Below, piece by piece: positions 12,408-50,129 of a stretch of 50,129 bases of DNA (position 1 is the stretch's first letter; the number at the start of each line of letters is the position of its first letter). Below the pieces are notes generated by a model. It was not told where the DNA came from. It ran no database searches and saw nothing but the letters and a program-made list of their open reading frames with translations. The stretch is from a bacterium. GTDB lineage: Bacteria > Patescibacteriota > Gracilibacteria > UM-FILTER-43-11. A program made the position numbers and the translations under genes. The stretch covers positions 1 to 50,129 of the forward strand of contig JAUHWS010000005.1 of NCBI GenBank assembly GCA_030427295.1, in the 5' to 3' direction.

Positions 12408-14051
12408 ATGGTTAAACAGAATCTTTTTAGCCGCTTGTCGTCTTGGCTGCCTGGGGCAGTATTGGCGTTTGCGGCGGCTTTGGCTTTTATGCCTAACGCA
12501 CTTGCTGCTCCAACCCTCAATTATACTGAAAAAATCCCTGAGCTTTTTAAGGTGTATGAGGGGGGTGATTACGCGATGAATATTGAACTGACTGAATTCG
12601 CTGATGATACGACGGTAGAAGTTTTTATAGAGGGCCCCGTTGATGATCCTGAAAGCAGTAAGTATAAAATTGGTGAATTTGAGTACACTCAAGATGGTGT
12701 TCATGAATTCACGTGGGATGGAACTGTCGATGGCGATTATTTATTGCCGGGTGACTATTTGGTGACGGTTTCTGGAGAAGATTTGCAAAACAATCCTCTT
12801 GGCCCCTTGGATGGTTCTTTTGAAATGACTGAGGAAACTAACATGACGGTTATTACGCCTCAACCCGATGATGTTCCTGCTGACTTTGCTAGTTTTGAGT
12901 ACGAATTGGAGACAGCAGTGGGTGCTTGTATTGTTTTTGAGGTGGATGGGGCTGTAGAAAAAACAGAGGGTCCTTTGAGTAGTGGTACTTATTCGTTCAA
13001 TTGGGGTTCTCCAGGTGAATATGAGTGGTCTTTTATAGCTGATCCTCAGTATTGTGATGGTGATGCCCCTGCTTCGACTGAAGAATTGGCTTCTGGCAAG
13101 CTTGTTGTTCTTGATGGCGAAGATGAAATCATCCAAGCGCCTACACTTGGTTTTACAGAAATGCTTGAAGCGACCTATGTCTTGGATTCAGGGAATTATT
13201 CGGTTGAAGTTGGCTTAGAAAATTTTGACTCCAATACTACTGTTGAAATGACTTTGACAGGTCCAAAGGAGGGAAATGAACAGAGTTTTGTAGCGGATAC
13301 CTATCTTTATCAAGACAATGGAACTCATACGTTTTTATGGAATGGGGAAGATGAAAAAGGCCTTCCCGAACCAGGTGAATATACAGTGACTTTTCAAGGA
13401 ATGTATGGTCAAGATCAAATGACCAATAAACTTGAATACGTTCTTTCTGTTGAAGAAAAAACTGTAGAACCTCCTGTTGAAGAAGAATTTTGTGGGGGTT
13501 TCACCGACTTGCCTGGAGATTATGTTTACTGTGATGCTGTCAAAAAAGTGAAGGCTGCTGGCTTGATGACAGGGCAAGATGATGGAACAGGTGCCTTTGA
13601 TATTGGCCCTTTGAATCGGGCTGAAGCGGTTCAAATTTATGCTCGTTTGGATGCGAATTATGATGAAGTTAATGAGGTTTGTGAAGTGATTTTCCCCGAT
13701 GTGGTTTGTGATATTTGGTATGGTCCGCTGGTCTATTATAGTCATGAACAAGGGTACGTGACCGGTTATGAGGCACCGGATCCTAAGGCGGGTATGTTTG
13801 GCCCTGGGGATGATCAAATTCAGCCTCAAGGTTTTGTTTTGCTCTCTCGGGTTTTGGACGTGGATTACCCCCATCAACAAGCGTCCTTCGGAGGTAAAAT
13901 TTCTGGTTCTGAATGGTATAGTGGGGCTTATGCCTGGGCCGAAATGCTAGAGCTTTTGCCTGCTGATGAGATCGACTTGAATAGCTCATTTACTCGCGAG
14001 GATATGGCTCGCGTGTTGGCTAAGTTGATTGATATGAATTTGATTCAATAG
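12408..14051 (+). CDS. S-layer homology (SLH) domain protein with FlgD-like Ig repeats
   Basis: 547 aa exported protein. The signal peptide ends around ALAAP (about residue 28). Two FlgD-type Ig-like repeats (about 35-125 and 250-345) share the wording EFTWDG/TFLWNG followed by LPGDY/EPGEY. Between them lies a smaller domain with two cysteines. The C-terminal 190 residues carry three SLH-type repeats (FTDLPGDYVYCDAVKKVKAAGLMTG, with FPDVVCDIWYGPLVYYSHEQGYVTG as the second), which anchor proteins to cell-wall polymers. The protein encoded at 44206 has the same order of parts. It lies inside the Cys-rich array and is followed directly by a hairpin train and repeat element 2. Confidence 0.82.
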   Translation: MVKQNLFSRLSSWLPGAVLAFAAALAFMPNALAAPTLNYTEKIPELFKVYEGGDYAMNIELTEFADDTTVEVFIEGPVDDPESSKYKIGEFEYTQDGVHEFTWDGTVDGDYLLPGDYLVTVSGEDLQNNPLGPLDGSFEMTEETNMTVITPQPDDVPADFASFEYELETAVGACIVFEVDGAVEKTEGPLSSGTYSFNWGSPGEYEWSFIADPQYCDGDAPASTEELASGKLVVLDGEDEIIQAPTLGFTEMLEATYVLDSGNYSVEVGLENFDSNTTVEMTLTGPKEGNEQSFVADTYLYQDNGTHTFLWNGEDEKGLPEPGEYTVTFQGMYGQDQMTNKLEYVLSVEEKTVEPPVEEEFCGGFTDLPGDYVYCDAVKKVKAAGLMTGQDDGTGAFDIGPLNRAEAVQIYARLDANYDEVNEVCEVIFPDVVCDIWYGPLVYYSHEQGYVTGYEAPDPKAGMFGPGDDQIQPQGFVLLSRVLDVDYPHQQASFGGKISGSEWYSGAYAWAEMLELLPADEIDLNSSFTREDMARVLAKLIDMNLIQ

Positions 14052-18335: not shown

Positions 18336-18579
18336 GTATATACTTCGAGTTAGGGTGAGTATATACTTTATTCTTAGTTACGAATTACTAATTACGAATT
18401 ACGAGTTTATTTTTTGAGCGTTTAGCGGTCAGCGTATAGCGTTTAGCTCTATTCTAAGATCTATTTTAGCTAGTCGCTATTCGCTACTCGCTTATCGCTT
18501 GTTGAAAAAGGTATTGAGATGGTGCCCAGCATTTCACAGAGGATAGGTATATAGTTGGGGAGAGGATGAGTATATACTT
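18336..18579. repeat. GTATATACTT-bounded element 3 (type B core)
   Basis: Boundary pairs start at 18336/18359 and 18547/18570, each spaced 23 bp. The core contains TTACGAATTACGAG and the AGCGTTTAGC inverted repeat as in elements 1 and 5. The last base of the right boundary is also the last base of the TrmB stop codon, so the element ends exactly at the gene's 3' end. Confidence 0.85.
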
Positions 18580-19340
18580 CACCGTGCTACGAAGGCGGTG
18601 GCGCCAAGCCAGGCAAGGTCAAAAAAGGATTTCATGCTTTCGGCGAAGGTGGGGCTTTCGAGGATGAGTCCGATCAGTTCATCTTTATTGAGAGAGATAA
18701 TGCCCACTTTGTTTCCGTAGATGGCGATTTCGTTTTGGAAGTTGAATTCTTTGGGGTTGACCATCAAAATTTCCAATAAGTTGGGATCATATTGTTTGGG
18801 ATAATAAGCATCGATCATGTCGACCCCTTCTTCGGTGGCGGGTGCGATGTAGCGGGTTTTGATTCTATATTTTACTTTTTTTTGACAAAATTGACGAAAA
18901 TAGTTGGGGAAGAGTTCACTTAGACCTTTTAAACTGGTGTAACCCAATACTTCGTCTTTTGTTTTTAGGATGTCCTCAAAAATACTTTTGACGCCTTCTT
19001 CTCCTTCGTAAAATCGAATTTTGGGTTTGGAAGCCATGGTGCTGGCCATGGCGAGGAGTTGCGGGATGAGGTCATTGGCCCGTTGTACTTTTTCTTCGGC
19101 CATTTGCTTGAAACGTTTGGGGTCTTCGGCGGTAAAGTGGAGTACTTTTCCCCTTCGGTAAGAACTCACTAGTCCCTTTTTAACGAGATTGTCTAGAGTG
19201 TGATAGCAAGAGGATCGATTGACTTTGGCTCGCCGGGCAATGGCGCTTACGAACGCGTTGCCCAGCTCTAAAACAGACAAGTATACTTTCGCTTCTTCTT
19301 TGGTTAATCCTAAATTTGTAAGCTCCTCATTAACGATCAT
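18579..19340 (-). CDS. TrmB-family transcriptional regulator 1
   Basis: 253 aa from the ATG at 19340; an upstream in-frame TTG at 19376 overlaps the predicted operator and is less likely. N-terminal winged helix-turn-helix (about 5-75: LTKEEAKVYLSVLELG, IARRAKVNRSSCYHTLDNLVKKGLV), a short coiled coil (80-105), then KIRFYEGEEGVKSIFEDIL typical of the TrmB effector-binding region, and ENEIAIYGNKVGIISL near the C-terminus. TrmB proteins usually sense sugars or other small ligands; the ligand here is unknown. Transcribed divergently from Cys-rich copy 5 with about 180 bp between starts. Confidence 0.85.
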   Translation of the reverse strand: MIVNEELTNLGLTKEEAKVYLSVLELGNAFVSAIARRAKVNRSSCYHTLDNLVKKGLVSSYRRGKVLHFTAEDPKRFKQMAEEKVQRANDLIPQLLAMASTMASKPKIRFYEGEEGVKSIFEDILKTKDEVLGYTSLKGLSELFPNYFRQFCQKKVKYRIKTRYIAPATEEGVDMIDAYYPKQYDPNLLEILMVNPKEFNFQNEIAIYGNKVGIISLNKDELIGLILESPTFAESMKSFFDLAWLGATAFVAR

Positions 19341-19360
19341 TTTTTGAGTTGAGTTATTGT

Positions 19361-19387
19361 TGTTGAATGGATTCAACAGATATTATA
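19361..19387 (-). promoter_or_regulatory. TrmB1 promoter with palindromic operator
   Basis: On the minus strand an extended -10 (TGA-TATAAT; complement of 19382-19387) should start transcription near 19375. The 18-bp palindrome TGTTGAATGGATTCAACA (19361-19378) covers that start. This is the classical geometry for autoregulation, inferred only from position. Confidence 0.55.
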
Positions 19388-23321: not shown

Positions 23322-24071
23322 TTACCTTCCCATTTTCCACGCCCACTCGAACATGGCTCGGTAGGTTTTGGCAATTTCCTCACTTTCAATCACGATGGCA
23401 AAAATATGGTTTTTGAGGGAGAAGATGACGAGTTTGTTTTCGTAGATCACGTTGTCGGTGAATCCGAATTCAAATTCATTGCTTAAATGACGCAGTTGAT
23501 ACCCCTTTTTGTATTCTTTTTTAAAATTTTTTGACCATTGATTGGTGGTTTTACTTCTGTAGTGTAGTTCTCGAATTTTAATGGTTTTGAGTTTTGAAAT
23601 GGATTCTTTAAAGTTGTTCATCACCTCTGGAACTTCTTTATGAATGGCATCCACATTGGCAAAAAACAAGGCTTCCGCTCCGTTTTTTAGAGCGCTGAAC
23701 ATGTCTTTGTATACCAGATTCATGCCCGCTTTGTTTTCGAAGACTTGAATCCTGGGTTTACTTTTACTTTGGTGATAAAGGGCTAAAAGATCCGGCAGGC
23801 TATCTTCCATCTGGCGTTTTTGATCCTGAGCGATTTCGACCAATCGATTGGGATGGATGGCAGCGTATTTTTTACGTTTTCCAATGAGGGTTTCAGATAC
23901 CAATCCTTTTTGAATGAGATCTTCGATGACCAGATAGGCGGTGGGCCGTTTGATTTGACTGATACGAGCAATATCGGTCATTGAGACTTCCCCAATTTCA
24001 AGTAGTTTTAAATAGACTGTTCTTTCTTTTTGGTCTAGGCCAATGTTTTTTAAGCTGGCTTCTATGTTCAT
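23322..24071 (-). CDS. TrmB-family transcriptional regulator 2
   Basis: 249 aa. Winged helix-turn-helix at about 8-70 (LDQKERTVYLKLLEIG, IARISQIKRPTAYLVIEDLIQKGLV), coiled coil, then KPRIQVFENKAGMNLVYKDMF, the degenerate equivalent of the TrmB RFYEG segment. The C-terminus ENKLVIFSL…FAIVIESEEIA parallels regulators 1 and 3. It is clearly paralogous to them but divergent. It is divergent from Cys-rich copy 7, although a DUF559 element now lies between. The promoter places transcription start on the ATG. Confidence 0.82.
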   Translation of the reverse strand: MNIEASLKNIGLDQKERTVYLKLLEIGEVSMTDIARISQIKRPTAYLVIEDLIQKGLVSETLIGKRKKYAAIHPNRLVEIAQDQKRQMEDSLPDLLALYHQSKSKPRIQVFENKAGMNLVYKDMFSALKNGAEALFFANVDAIHKEVPEVMNNFKESISKLKTIKIRELHYRSKTTNQWSKNFKKEYKKGYQLRHLSNEFEFGFTDNVIYENKLVIFSLKNHIFAIVIESEEIAKTYRAMFEWAWKMGR

Positions 24072-28101: not shown

Positions 28102-28875
28102 CTAGTCTAAATTGTTCCACATCTCCTCAAAATAGATTCGAAATGTATCGGCGACGGCTTTACTTTCGATGATGATGCCTGAAGGATAGCCTCCCTCCAT
28201 GTTGGTGTAGGCGACTTTATTGGACCAGCACAGGGTGTCTGTTGGGAAGGTGCCTTTTGATTTTTTCCAGATTTTATATTGGTGTTTAGTGGGTCCATTT
28301 TTGTAGGCTTTTATGATTCGTTCAGTCATTTTGGATTCGGTCATGATGTCCCGCTTAAAGAGTCCTAGCATGTTTAAGTAGACGTTATTCTCTAGAAATC
28401 CTGGGTATGTTTTTTCTAGTTCTTCGGTCGGCCAGATGGTGATTACTTTGCGATTGCATTTTTCTGCATTCATCAAATCCTTTCGTATTTCTTCGTAGAC
28501 CCTTATCATTCCATCCACTCCTTCATAAAAACGAACTTTTGTTTTTTGGGAGGTTCCCATTTTTAAATTTTCAAAGGCACTGGCTGCTTTTTCAAACTCT
28601 TTTTCGGTCTTCTCCCATTGCCGTTTTTTTTGATTGATGTAGGCAATGAGTCCTGAATGTCCCAGTGCTTCATAGTGTTTGACGCCTGACTTTTCAAATT
28701 CTGTGATCAGTCCTTTTTCTAATAGGCTTTCGGTTAAGTCGTAAATATGAGTTCGGGTGATGTCTGTTTCTTTAGCAATGGTTTTAACGGCGGCTGGGCC
28801 CATTTTATAGATCGCCAAGAATACGGCAATTTCTTTTTCTTGGAGATTTAATCGGGATAGTAATGTTTTGAGCAT
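28102..28875 (-). CDS. TrmB-family transcriptional regulator 3
   Basis: 257 aa. Winged helix-turn-helix at about 5-70 (LNLQEKEIAVFLAIYKMG, IAKETDITRTHIYDLTESLLEKGLI), coiled coil (80-110), then KVRFYEGVDGMIRVYEEI, the typical TrmB effector-domain entry, and SNKVAYTNMEGGYPSGIIIESKAVADTFR at the C-terminus. Divergent from Cys-rich copy 8. Two near-identical 22-bp sequences lie one in its 5' leader and one over the -35 of the opposite promoter, so it probably controls both genes. Confidence 0.87.
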   Translation of the reverse strand: MLKTLLSRLNLQEKEIAVFLAIYKMGPAAVKTIAKETDITRTHIYDLTESLLEKGLITEFEKSGVKHYEALGHSGLIAYINQKKRQWEKTEKEFEKAASAFENLKMGTSQKTKVRFYEGVDGMIRVYEEIRKDLMNAEKCNRKVITIWPTEELEKTYPGFLENNVYLNMLGLFKRDIMTESKMTERIIKAYKNGPTKHQYKIWKKSKGTFPTDTLCWSNKVAYTNMEGGYPSGIIIESKAVADTFRIYFEEMWNNLD

Positions 28876-44205: not shown

Positions 44206-45630
44206 ATGAAGCGATTTACCTTTCTCAGCCGGGCGGTATCTACTTTGGCCTTGGCTGCTTTTTTCTTTGTCACTCCTACTTTGGCGGCGCCTGTGATTGG
44301 TTTTGACCAAATGCCATTAGAATCCTTTAAGCGTTATGAAACCTTGACCTACTCTGCTTTGGTGAATGTATTTGGAGTGGAGCAGCCGACTTTGGTTCAC
44401 ATGTATGTTTATGGTCCCATGGATGATTCAGGTGCCGAAGAGCATTTGATTGCGTCGCATGTTTACGAAACGAGTGGGGTTTATGAATTCACGTGGGATG
44501 GTAAGGCGGATGGCTATTCTTTGCCTGCCGGAGATTACGAACTTCGCTTCAAAAGTGGTGGGCTTTTTCAAGCCTCTGAATCGGCGCTACGTTTTGAATT
44601 TGAATTGACGGATAACTATTTCGTTACTGTTCAAGAGGATGACAGCTCTCAGGCAGATGATTCCAATGGAGCTACGGATGGTTCTTCTGATGATTCGGAT
44701 GATGACTCTAACAATGATGGTACCGCAGATGATACTGGCTCAGGCGATGATGCTTCAAATGCTGACCCGGATGAGGATGATTTGGTGGATGATATTTCCT
44801 TTAGTCTTCAATCGCTTGAACCGATTTGTGCTGAATTGAAAGTGGATGGAGTGTCTCAAAAGGTTTACGAGGCTCTTGAAGAAGGAGAACATCAAATCGA
44901 TTTGGACGAGTTGATGGATTCAGAGGATTTAGAGCCAGGTGATCATGAGTGGGGGCTCTATACCGATGGTTTGGCTTGTGGCGGGTCGGATGAGGATGAA
45001 CAATTGATGGCTTCTGGCCAATTTACGGTGGCCGAGCGCGAACCGGATTATTCTGAGTTGTGTTCGATTTTTACGGATATTGAACCCGATCATCCTGATT
45101 GTCCTGCGATCGGCTATGTGTACAGTATTGGGGCGATGACGGGGTATCCGGATGGGACCTTTCGACCCAAAAAAATCTTGCAACGCGATGAGGTGTCGAA
45201 GATTTCTTTGATGGCTTTTGAATTTTATAAGGATGGTTTGGATTACTGTCGAGGTGAGGATCCTTTCCCCGATGTTCGTGTGAATGGAGATGAGCCCGAT
45301 TGGTCGGCTCAATATGTGTGCCGCGGGGTCGAGAAAAATATGATCACCGGTTATGAAGGTGGTGAAGACGAGGGTTATTTCCGTCCGGCTCGATTGGTGA
45401 ACATTGCTGAGTTCTTGGCTCTGTTCTTCCGCAACTTGAATGAGACCATGCCGGCTGATAGTAGTGCTTCGTATGCCAATATTCCTACGGGGGAATGGTT
45501 TACCGGCTTCTTCCGCTTTGCTCAAGATAATGATCTTCTGGATACGATTCCATCGTCCCCAACCGATGATGTGCCTCGTTTGCAAGTGGCCAAGGTGCTT
45601 TATAAGTTGTATCAGTTGGGGATGTTGTAG
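44206..45630 (+). CDS. S-layer homology (SLH) domain protein 2
   Basis: 474 aa exported protein, paralogous to the SLH protein encoded at 12408. Signal peptide ends about TLAAP. One FlgD-type Ig domain (about 30-130, VYEFTWDGKADGYSLPAGDYELRF). A strongly acidic Asp/Ser/Asn linker (about 145-190) is typical of Ca-binding spacers. A small two-cysteine domain follows, then SLH repeats from about 285 (FTDIEPDHPDCPAIGYVYSIGAMTGYPDGTFRP, then YVCRGVEKNMITGYEGG). Compared with its paralog it has one Ig domain fewer and the acidic linker instead. Likely cell-wall-anchored surface protein. Preceded by repeat element 5. Confidence 0.83.
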   Translation: MKRFTFLSRAVSTLALAAFFFVTPTLAAPVIGFDQMPLESFKRYETLTYSALVNVFGVEQPTLVHMYVYGPMDDSGAEEHLIASHVYETSGVYEFTWDGKADGYSLPAGDYELRFKSGGLFQASESALRFEFELTDNYFVTVQEDDSSQADDSNGATDGSSDDSDDDSNNDGTADDTGSGDDASNADPDEDDLVDDISFSLQSLEPICAELKVDGVSQKVYEALEEGEHQIDLDELMDSEDLEPGDHEWGLYTDGLACGGSDEDEQLMASGQFTVAEREPDYSELCSIFTDIEPDHPDCPAIGYVYSIGAMTGYPDGTFRPKKILQRDEVSKISLMAFEFYKDGLDYCRGEDPFPDVRVNGDEPDWSAQYVCRGVEKNMITGYEGGEDEGYFRPARLVNIAEFLALFFRNLNETMPADSSASYANIPTGEWFTGFFRFAQDNDLLDTIPSSPTDDVPRLQVAKVLYKLYQLGML

Positions 45631-48152: not shown

Positions 48153-48180
48153 AAGGCCCTTTTTTAGGGGGGTCTTTATA
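48153..48180 (+). terminator. terminator after the membrane protein gene
   Basis: AAGGCCC (48153-48159) pairs with GGGTCTT (48170-48176) with one G-T wobble, followed by a T/A-rich tract. Confidence 0.6.
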
Positions 48181-48202: not shown

Positions 48203-48231
48203 TTGACAAATGTTTTTAATTTGGTTACTAT
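48203..48231 (+). promoter_or_regulatory. promoter of lipoprotein cassette 1
   Basis: TTGACA (48203-48208), 17 bp, TACTAT (48226-48231). The shared leader starts about 15 nt downstream. Cassette 2 has no comparable promoter of its own. Confidence 0.7.
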
Positions 48232-48245
48232 CTTTTTTGCTGTTC

Positions 48246-48307
48246 TTTAAAATCACCTTTTGAGTCGGTACATCCTTGTCTTATTTCTAGTTGTCTGTTG
48301 CCCTCCA
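48246..48307 (+). repeat. 62-bp leader repeat, copy 1
   Basis: Identical over 62 bp to 48974-49035, and still similar for another 45 bp (AATAGT…GAA…ATAAGGAA.GGAT…GACT). It is followed by a cassette-specific hairpin, TTTGCACATG (48362-48371) with CATGTGCAAA (48406-48415), and further small hairpins before the start codon. Confidence 0.9.
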
Positions 48308-48507
48308 GCAATAGTACAGACAGAATACATAAGGAATGGATTCCGCTGACTCAATGCATTATTTGCACATGTCGACAATTGCTTTTTTTAGAAGGTGGTT
48401 GCCGGCATGTGCAAAGAGACTTCTTTGCCTTGTTGGTATCAGGGGTATACCTCACCCTGGTGTGCTGGAGATTTGCCTCCAGAAACCCCTTGAGGTTATT
48501 CAACGCT

Positions 48508-48897
48508 ATGTCGTTCTACAACAAGAGCTTTTCCTGCGGCCTCGGCCGTCTTCTTTCCACCTCTTTCCTGGGCCTCGCCCTTTTCCTCGCGGGCTGCGAT
48601 AGCTGCGAGGACGAGTCCTGTGACGACCCCATCCTCGCCGACGACGTCGACTGCTTCGTCAACGACGGCGACGAGGTTCGTCCCTGCACCGAGGACGACG
48701 ACGTCAGCGTCGTCGAGGTGCCGAACGAGGACCTCACCCTCCCCCCCGTCGGCAATACGGTCCTCCACTGCTACAGCGAGAAGCGTTGTGCTGAGGTGGA
48801 GGCTGGGTGCAACAAGCCTGGCCAGGAGTACTCCGAGACCAAGAAGGTCCAGGAGGACGGCAGCGTCTCCATCCACGGCGTCTGCACGACGCCGTAG
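48508..48897 (+). CDS. GC-rich Cys-rich lipoprotein, cassette 1
   Basis: 129 aa from ATG 48508 (GAGG 12 nt upstream); the frame is open further upstream but runs through the structured leader. Signal peptide with lipobox LFLAGC (Cys about residue 30). The mature part is acidic (DSCEDESCDD, DDVDCFVNDGDE) with about nine cysteines, suggesting a disulfide-bonded exported protein. Codons end overwhelmingly in G or C (GAC, GTC, CTC, GAG), unlike every neighbouring gene, indicating foreign origin or unusual selection. No family recognised. The gene is followed by a strong GC hairpin. Confidence 0.7.
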   Translation: MSFYNKSFSCGLGRLLSTSFLGLALFLAGCDSCEDESCDDPILADDVDCFVNDGDEVRPCTEDDDVSVVEVPNEDLTLPPVGNTVLHCYSEKRCAEVEAGCNKPGQEYSETKKVQEDGSVSIHGVCTTP

Positions 48898-48925
48898 TGA
48901 CTGACGCGGATCCATGAACCCAAGC

Positions 48926-48949
48926 CCCGCGCGCGGTATCGCGCGCGGG
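48926..48949 (+). terminator. GC hairpin ending cassette 1
   Basis: CCCGCGCGCG-GTAT-CGCGCGCGGG, a 10-bp stem with a 4-nt loop. It is preceded by TGACTGACGCGGATCC, which has a counterpart (TGACCTGACGCG, GATCC) at the end of cassette 2. No immediate U-tract. Confidence 0.55.
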
Positions 48950-48973
48950 CAACTAAAACAATTTTTATCGCTT

Positions 48974-49035
48974 TTTAAAATCACCTTTTGAGTCGGTACA
49001 TCCTTGTCTTATTTCTAGTTGTCTGTTGCCCTCCA
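48974..49035 (+). repeat. 62-bp leader repeat, copy 2
   Basis: Second copy. It is followed by a different hairpin with the same position: CTCACGTTACA near 49089 pairs with TGTGACGTGAG near 49131, and GGCTA/TAGCC lies inside. Confidence 0.9.
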
Positions 49036-49239
49036 AATGCAATAGTGCGAATGGAAGCTATAAGGAACGGATCCCCCCGACTTAAATCTCACGTTACAAC
49101 TGAGTTGGCTATATTCTAGCCATTTGAATTGTGACGTGAGAGATGCGTTCGCATTTCAAGATGTACGGATAAGGCCGGACGCAGGCGGGGAGGCTTGCGC
49201 GTTCACACCACCAACCCTTTGCTTGGAGTTTTTTCCAGC

Positions 49240-49578
49240 ATGTTCCGCAAGTTTGGCCAAGTGGCCATGTTGTTCACCATCCTACTCGGATTCGGCTGCG
49301 ATCCTGAGCCTTCGCCTATCAGTTCTGAAGCGCCTGCTCCGGACGAAGTGTTCGAGGAGGATGAGGAGATCCTCACGGGCCGTGAGCTCGATCTCCTTCA
49401 GAAGGTCTGGCCGGCAACTGACGGTTGCCACTGGAAAAAGACCCCACAGGAGGATGGCAACGTTCTCTATGAGAAGGAGTGCTGTACGGTCGATGACGCC
49501 TCAGGTGGTGTGAGCTGCAAAGTCGTCAGCTCAATGATCTGTCCCCCGGACGCCAATGGGCCCAGCGACTGCTGGTGA
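49240..49578 (+). CDS. GC-rich Cys-containing lipoprotein, cassette 2
   Basis: 112 aa from ATG 49240 (GGAG 13 nt upstream). Signal peptide with lipobox LLGFGC (Cys20), Pro/Ser/Glu-rich linker, then a compact domain with six cysteines (GCHWKK, ECCTV, SCKV, MICPP, DCW). Unrelated in sequence to the cassette 1 product except for the lipoprotein signal, the acidic linker and high GC at third positions. Together with the shared leader and 3' motif this marks it as the second of two autonomous-looking cassettes. Stop TGA. Confidence 0.7.
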   Translation: MFRKFGQVAMLFTILLGFGCDPEPSPISSEAPAPDEVFEEDEEILTGRELDLLQKVWPATDGCHWKKTPQEDGNVLYEKECCTVDDASGGVSCKVVSSMICPPDANGPSDCW

Positions 49579-49602
49579 CCTGACGCGACGACGATCCGTG
49601 AC

Positions 49603-49634
49603 GGCGCCGGTGGACCACCAGGTTCGCCGGCGCC
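49603..49634 (+). terminator. GC hairpin ending cassette 2
   Basis: GGCGCCGG (49603-49610) pairs with CCGGCGCC (49627-49634). Same relative position as the hairpin ending cassette 1. Confidence 0.5.
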
Positions 49635-49781: not shown

Positions 49782-50129
49782 ATGGAGTATCGGAATTCTC
49801 AAAAGCGGTTTCATGTTGAGGGATATACATATTTTGTGACGGGAGTGACCAAGCATCGATATCGGTATTTTGAGGAGAAAATCTTTTGTGAGGTGTTTTG
49901 GGAGAATTTGAAATTGTGTCAGGAGTTGAAGAACTTTATTCTTCATGGATGGTTTTTGGGATATGATCATTTTCATTTATTGGTGACGCCGATGGGGGAT
50001 GCGAATATTTCGGAGATCATGAAATCGATCAAAGGCAATTCGTCGTGTGATATTAATCGAATCATAAATCCATTTCTTGAAGGCGAGGTTCCGGAACCTC
50101 GCCTTCAAGAAATATATGATGGTCAGAAG
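49782..50129 (+). CDS. REP-associated / IS200-like Y1 (HUH) transposase, partial
   Basis: 116 codons, cut off by the window end. GGAG precedes the ATG. FHVEGYTYFVTGVTKHRYRYF begins the Y1_Tnp domain; FLGYDHFHLLVTP near residue 64 is the HUH metal motif; ANISEIMKSIKGNSSCDINR follows as in RAYT proteins. The catalytic tyrosine would lie beyond the edge. Such enzymes cut single-stranded DNA at hairpins. The frame includes a 42-bp perfect palindrome translated as LEGEVPEPRLQ, whose core also starts hairpin train 1, so the enzyme gene carries a copy of the kind of hairpin it may recognise. Confidence 0.88.
   Translation, partial: MEYRNSQKRFHVEGYTYFVTGVTKHRYRYFEEKIFCEVFWENLKLCQELKNFILHGWFLGYDHFHLLVTPMGDANISEIMKSIKGNSSCDINRIINPFLEGEVPEPRLQEIYDGQK
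50072..50113. repeat. 42-bp perfect palindrome within the transposase gene
   Basis: Centred between 50092 and 50093; the inner 28 bp (50079-50106) equal 14091-14118. It keeps the reading frame open, adding about 11-14 residues between the SIKGNSS helix and the expected C-terminal part. Confidence 0.92.

Follow-up and report, generated by a model that had tools for sequence, protein, structure and literature searches.

A candidate family of boxA-bearing mRNA elements with pre-rRNA-like architecture upstream of exported-protein genes in Peregrinibacteria

In pre-rRNA, boxA recruits NusB and S10, and the helix formed between leader and trailer is essential (PMC10250234). Certain mRNAs, namely, suhB and a Citrobacter toxin-antitoxin gene, are known to be controlled by boxA (PMC5725501), and boxA is also known ahead of CRISPR arrays (work cited in PMC7862264). 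Pairing between the two ends of a message has been described for icaR of Staphylococcus aureus, where the interaction of the 5′ and 3′ untranslated regions (UTRs) represses the gene and makes its mRNA a target of RNase III (PMC3868564). For Ca. Peribacter, exported, Cys-rich surface proteins that vary among strains have been reported, including one cluster of 14 genes (PMC4736985).

We analyzed a stretch of 50,129 nucleotides (hereafter, the window) containing two tandem units, spaced by 728 bp, each with a lipoprotein gene. The host belongs to the Peregrinibacteria, ultra-small uncultured bacteria. Like pre-16S and pre-23S rRNA, the element combines a boxA close to the 5′ end with leader helices and with covarying complementary sequences flanking the enclosed RNA. 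Unlike in these precursors, what is enclosed is an ORF encoding a protein, the helix spans some 10–13 bp compared to more than 17–30 bp, the leader strand doubles as part of a local hairpin, and no Rho RNA-binding domain was found in the genomes checked. The 11-nt boxA of a Legionella CRISPR array, GTTCTTTAAAA (PMC7862264), is identical to the boxA sequence of unit 1; unlike suhB, the Citrobacter gene, and the CRISPR arrays, however, the present boxA belongs to a multi-gene RNA family with a hairpin and a trailer, on surface proteins. The icaR case involves a single gene and pairing with the Shine-Dalgarno (SD) sequence, whereas here we find a family spanning genera, with coordinated changes and boxA. 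The Ca. Peribacter proteins are likewise exported, Cys-rich surface proteins of Peregrinibacteria, but the passages that we consulted describe no leader, boxA, trailer, or composition contrast (PMC4736985). Integron gene cassettes carry attC-type sites 3′ of each ORF, whereas the hairpins considered here lie 5′ of each ORF, with none seen after the last.

Organization of the two units in the window

All features of the two units are on the plus strand. The locus starts with the unit 1 promoter (48203–48231), of the sigma-70 type (TTGACA-17-TACTAT), downstream of an intrinsic terminator (48153–48176) that closes the AT-rich neighboring gene; a promoter was sought for unit 2, and none was found. 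In unit 1, boxA (TGTTCTTTAAAA, 48241–48252) is followed by the leader hairpin hp1 (48250–48356), a second, unit-specific hairpin (48362–48415), the gene lip1 (48508–48897) encoding a 129-aa lipoprotein, a trailer (48906–48915), and a GC-rich terminal hairpin (48926–48949). Unit 2 repeats this order, with a degenerate boxA (CGCTTTTTAAAA, 48969–48980), hp1 (48978–49087), its own second hairpin (49088–49142), lip2 (49240–49578) encoding a 112-aa lipoprotein, a trailer (49593–49599), and a GC-rich terminal hairpin (49603–49634). The original prediction of two units with an identical 62-bp leader (48246–48307 and 48974–49035) and a unit-specific hairpin in each was confirmed from the sequence. The identity is real, but the 62-bp stretch turned out to be one arm of a larger structure: it corresponds to the 5′ arm of hp1, a long, irregular hairpin of ~107–110 nt and 34 pairs (in unit 1, this arm takes up most of the 62 bp), with folding z-scores of −5.9 in unit 1 and −4.1 in unit 2. 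The 3′ arms of the two units have diverged with pairing kept: all differences between them are compatible with pairing, six of them via G-U.

The two genes were described in that prediction as unrelated and rich in GC-ending codons, and both points hold. No sequence kinship was detected between lip1 and lip2 apart from the lipoprotein signal, and their GC3 values are 0.877 and 0.68, compared to 0.42 ± 0.064 (maximum, 0.555) for the 34 other genes of the window; lip1 has no A-ending codon at all. Neither lip1 nor lip2 had a genuine match among relatives, plasmids, phages, viral contigs, Pfam, or NCBIfam, and one hit, to a cyclophilin-like lipoprotein, was rejected as signal-peptide similarity only.

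Elsewhere in the window, two surface-type proteins of normal composition are encoded at 12408–14051 and at 44206–45630, the latter with SLH and FlgD-like Ig domains. About ten tandem paralogs of ~535–562 aa with repeated Cys pairs (MKTCxxCxxxFEV...) occupy 8161–36318, with TrmB-like regulators among them (18579–19376, 23322–24071, and 28102–28875). At the contig end, a perfect 42-bp palindrome with 21-nt arms and no loop (50072–50113) lies in the frame of a Y1/REP-type transposase.

A structured leader and its distribution

When the leader was used as a BLASTN query against 58 genomes, the own genome alone matched, so RNA structure was needed to find relatives. A covariance model built from the two hairpins of the window (R1) identified a copy in another genus, directly upstream of a GC-rich gene for a Cys-rich lipoprotein, and a search with that lipoprotein led to further loci, among them an ung-gyrA interval that holds four units in tandem in one genome (G017). 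A public pattern search identified the organisms as Candidatus Peregrinibacteria / Patescibacteria. Of the 18 genomes in this Peregrinibacteria family, 9 gave a match to a ten-sequence model (R2; threshold E ≤ 0.01), as did two genomes from other families of the class. In two more genomes of the same family (G014 and G016), it was first recognized by eye, and a 24-sequence model (R3) that had not been trained on them matched each (E of 0.0019 and 0.28). The element is thus present in 11 of the 18 family genomes and, with the two from other families, in 13 genomes altogether. By BLASTN, the leader is confined to the own genome, as the original prediction had named for its refutation, but searches by RNA structure overturn that objection. 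A broader set of 380 genomes from the phylum yielded matches in only two (G000 and G002). The own genome, of which 0.83 of 1.48 Mb was sampled, holds at least five further copies, on C76, C94, C96 (two), and C9 (by eye). All genomes are metagenome assemblies, and some units are cut by contig ends. Low-scoring model matches in G030, G037, and G028 were rejected, and a locus in G004 is doubtful: it has a GC-raised lipoprotein gene and a word resembling boxA, but its hairpin is different.

In an alignment of 24 copies (A5) that was fitted to the structure, and whose pair counts therefore lean towards it, pairing was kept in 93.2% of cells, with double-sided changes at 14 of 18 pairs and compensatory changes at 9 of 10 in P1 (one row is the antisense reading of the copy in G222). 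The observed covariation was reached by none of 500 shuffles, and sliding the partner by one column in the same 24 copies lowered pairing to 50–60%. The same P1 changes were seen in an independent MAFFT alignment of ten sequences (A4). The internal loop holds a conserved core, GG(A/U)CAU(C/U)...GAUUC(C/U)CC. Rfam covariance models gave no match other than weak, sub-threshold chance ones. It is nearly certain that the hairpins form a genuine RNA family. Homology of hp1 with the hairpin that follows boxA in rrn leaders was considered and not adopted: the order is the same, but homology is not clear.

Two further stretches deserve mention. In the array of G010, boxA TGTTCTTTAAAA also stands at the second gene (L093, 2840–3000), with a diverged hairpin that terminates in GGATTCTCTC; this copy is not listed by the models. 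In G009, a structured stretch with an intrinsic terminator lies between two GC-rich units, 5′ of boxA (L010, 4395–4190, minus strand); it is possibly an attenuator and had no match in Rfam.

Leader-trailer complementarity and boxA

Examination of the 3′ flanks revealed that the stretch immediately past the stop codon and the 3′ strand of the leader hairpin are complementary. Across 24 cassettes, the longest exact complementary run averaged 9.96 nt, compared to 7.13 ± 0.32 nt when trailers were permuted among cassettes, and none of 10,000 permutations reached the observed value; duplex energies behaved alike (−26.4 vs −22.1 ± 0.7 permuted, 0 of 5,000). As controls, pairing of the 3′ strand with the gene interior gave 5.6 nt, and pairing of the 5′ arm with the trailer gave 5.75 nt. 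The variants of leader and trailer match each other, as in GATTCCCCC/GGGGGAATC, GGATTCTCC/GGAGAATCC, GGATTCTCTCG/CGAGAGAATCC, GTGAGTCCCCCC/GGGGGGACTCAC, and TCAATTCCCC/GGGGAATTGA. Co-folding of cases outside the window, the own genome included, opened the hairpin in favor of 10–17 leader-trailer pairs in 11 of 12. Complementary flanking segments with covariation were found across the family; apart from one case of 5, exact runs measured 7–13 nt, short of a helix of more than ~17 bp, and 4 of the 24 cassettes had no significant exact run. Because a hairpin strand matches the segment after the stop codon and both change in a coordinated manner from gene to gene, the ends of the message are apparently able to pair with each other, and we consider it highly probable that this pairing is an evolved feature of the family.

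The two units of the window are the weakest cases. In unit 1, the leader strand ATGGATTCCGC (48336–48346) can form 10 pairs with the trailer GCGGATCCAT, with one bulged U; in unit 2, the leader strand ACGGATC (49067–49073) can form 7 pairs with the trailer GATCCGT. Exact runs are just 7 nt in both (P of 0.16–0.18 when taken alone), and co-folding leaves the hairpins closed. A single coordinated change distinguishes the two units, with U to C in the leader paired with A to G in the trailer. Given that both trailers are weak, pairing here may be marginal, and we put the chances that it matters in these two units at about even. The 3′ word to which attention had been drawn, CTGACGCG, is indeed common to both units and occurs nowhere else in the window, but by itself it is close to what chance would give (P = 0.08); its relevance comes from its position beside, or within, the leader-complementary trailer. 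The complementarity, like boxA, had not been part of the original prediction.

Directly 5′ of the hairpin, the copies have on average 1.13 mismatches to the boxA sequence TGNTCTTTNAAA, compared to 3.66 in shuffles, and 16 of 23 have at most one. The boxA of the rrn leader in the own genome, TTTGTTCTTTAAAACAC, is nearly identical to that of unit 1, the unit 2 copy being degenerate. The word alone is not specific, since it occurs without mismatch 11 times in 0.83 Mb, twice at leaders. Nevertheless, the element very probably carries a boxA of the rrn type. In eight genomes checked (G002, G006, G009, G010, G012, G015, G017, and the own genome), NusB was present in seven, the own included, and the Rho RNA-binding domain (PF07497) in none; the control was positive in 9 of 14 genomes. 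Given the lack of this domain in the eight genomes, classical anti-Rho action, that is, protection from Rho-dependent termination, is unlikely to be the role of boxA here. This removes the best-known function of boxA and thus counts against a pre-rRNA-like reading.

Raised GC3 and competing explanations

The ORFs downstream of the leader encode exported proteins or lipoproteins, often Cys-rich, some with SLH, FlgD-like, or collagen-like domains. The sole exception is a GC-raised, cytidylyltransferase-like protein (G015b), whose leader copy lies beside rpsI (L095, 5103–5211); not being exported, it weighs against the pre-rRNA-like reading. Cassette GC3 exceeded that of neighboring genes in 13 of 13 genomes (Wilcoxon P = 2.4e-4), and its regression on host GC3 had a slope of 0.95 ± 0.19 and an intercept of 0.23 (r = 0.83). 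The constant offset favors a process operating in situ; successive capture from donors rich in GC, followed by amelioration, fits within error, and the GC3 of 0.94–0.98 of some cassette genes in the own genome, which stands at 0.42, is hard to explain without such capture. Folding of the ORFs beyond codon usage was weak (z of −0.3 to −1.6). Three other GC-rich genes were noticed in the own genome: one without the conserved leader (L118, 5469–5951), one with boxA upstream (L132, 442–1368), and one with a weak model match (L132, 3445–4884; E = 0.33).

If raised GC3 merely reflected codon optimization for high expression behind an ordinary strong 5′ UTR, strong promoters and boxA, both suggestive of high expression, would fit. 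The ribosomal protein genes of G015, however, shift in the opposite direction (C-ending NNY codons, 0.39, and G-ending NNR codons, 0.42, against a background of 0.51 and 0.37 and cassette values of 0.76 and 0.80), so the rise is not ordinary codon optimization, and we regard this explanation as very improbable. A tblastn search for ribosomal proteins, run on the portion of the own genome that was sampled, gave no match, lacked a positive control, and was not used. Another rival is a cassette system at the DNA level, in which leader strand and trailer would form the inverted repeats at either end of a mobile gene, and foreign genes rich in GC (Myxococcota-like lipoproteins) would be captured behind a constant native leader. 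The GC3 values of up to 0.98 speak for it, as do loci at which one leader precedes different genes (ung-gyrA, with 1 to 4 units, and rsmH-pqqL), a slope below 1 that gradual amelioration accommodates within the regression error, and linkers of own-genome proteins that presumably resemble myxobacterial lipoproteins. Related proteins of Peribacteria have also been reported to show weak similarity to Cys-rich repeats of Myxococcus (PMC4736985). Yet the G-U-compatible differences between the 3′ arms in the window are needed by RNA alone, the hairpin base covaries, and the leader is always upstream and always in the sense orientation. Moreover, it was not found in viral collections or viral contigs, GC3 follows that of each host and not one donor composition, some cassette proteins have SLH domains, and part of a G009 protein is akin to normal-composition proteins of the same family. 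We therefore consider such a DNA-level system unlikely. The original prediction of a constant regulatory leader ahead of exchanged, exported Cys-rich proteins is thus partly supported: the leader before differing exported, often Cys-rich proteins recurs in the 13 genomes, four-unit array included, but exchange is not supported in the form proposed, as viral collections lack the leader and raised GC3 depends on the host.

At the RNA level, the hairpin alone could be a 5′ stabilizer of the mRNA or a ligand- or protein-binding, riboswitch-like leader, with boxA and the trailer matches secondary. The conserved internal loop and the 5′-terminal position just downstream of a promoter are compatible with this possibility, but the matches of the trailers are specific to each cassette and far from random, the genes are for structural surface proteins and not for the enzymes or transporters of one metabolite, and Rfam offers no match, all of which makes it rather improbable. 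Repression as in icaR is a somewhat stronger contender, though still on the unlikely side: pairing would create an RNase III target, or the freed pyrimidine-rich 5′ arm would cover the SD sequence. There is precedent for 5′-3′ UTR pairing (PMC3868564), and CCUU-type stretches are frequent in the 5′ arm, but the icaR 3′ UTR covers the SD sequence, whereas the strand engaged here belongs to a hairpin located tens of bases upstream. The pairing may protect, process, or repress the message, and self-repression and protection would look alike at the sequence level.

A candidate closed-loop message

At the sequence level, a boxA, a compensatory hairpin, coordinated leader-trailer complementarity, and an association with exported proteins of raised GC3 are borne out. 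The reading that we prefer, and hold to be more probable than not, is that these cis-acting mRNA elements form a family laid out like a pre-rRNA: strong promoter, boxA, hairpin, exported-protein ORF, and trailer. NusB and S10 bound at boxA would keep the 5′ leader close to the elongating polymerase; the emerging trailer would then take the 3′ strand of the hairpin, the base of which would open so that both ends of the message would be joined. The joined ends could protect the mRNA or set its processing and translation. We advance this loop-closing mechanism only tentatively, and with similar reserve suggest that these might be messages of a class built like pre-rRNA, in which boxA-dependent Nus complexes bring leader to trailer, with an mRNA loop and a hairpin switch, in Rho-less organisms.

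In the literature searched, we found no work that joins rrn-type boxA, covarying pairing between the distant ends of an mRNA, and the variable lipoproteins on the surface of Patescibacteria. The family offers a test case for boxA function without Rho and a candidate bacterial closed-loop mRNA; the elevation of GC confined to cassette genes is a second puzzle. The leader model together with the trailer provides a sequence tag with which one can list, for uncultured symbionts, the proteins likely to serve at the surface or in contact. If our reading is true, these tiny bacteria would have an expression architecture devoted to the variable surface proteins with which they encounter other cells.
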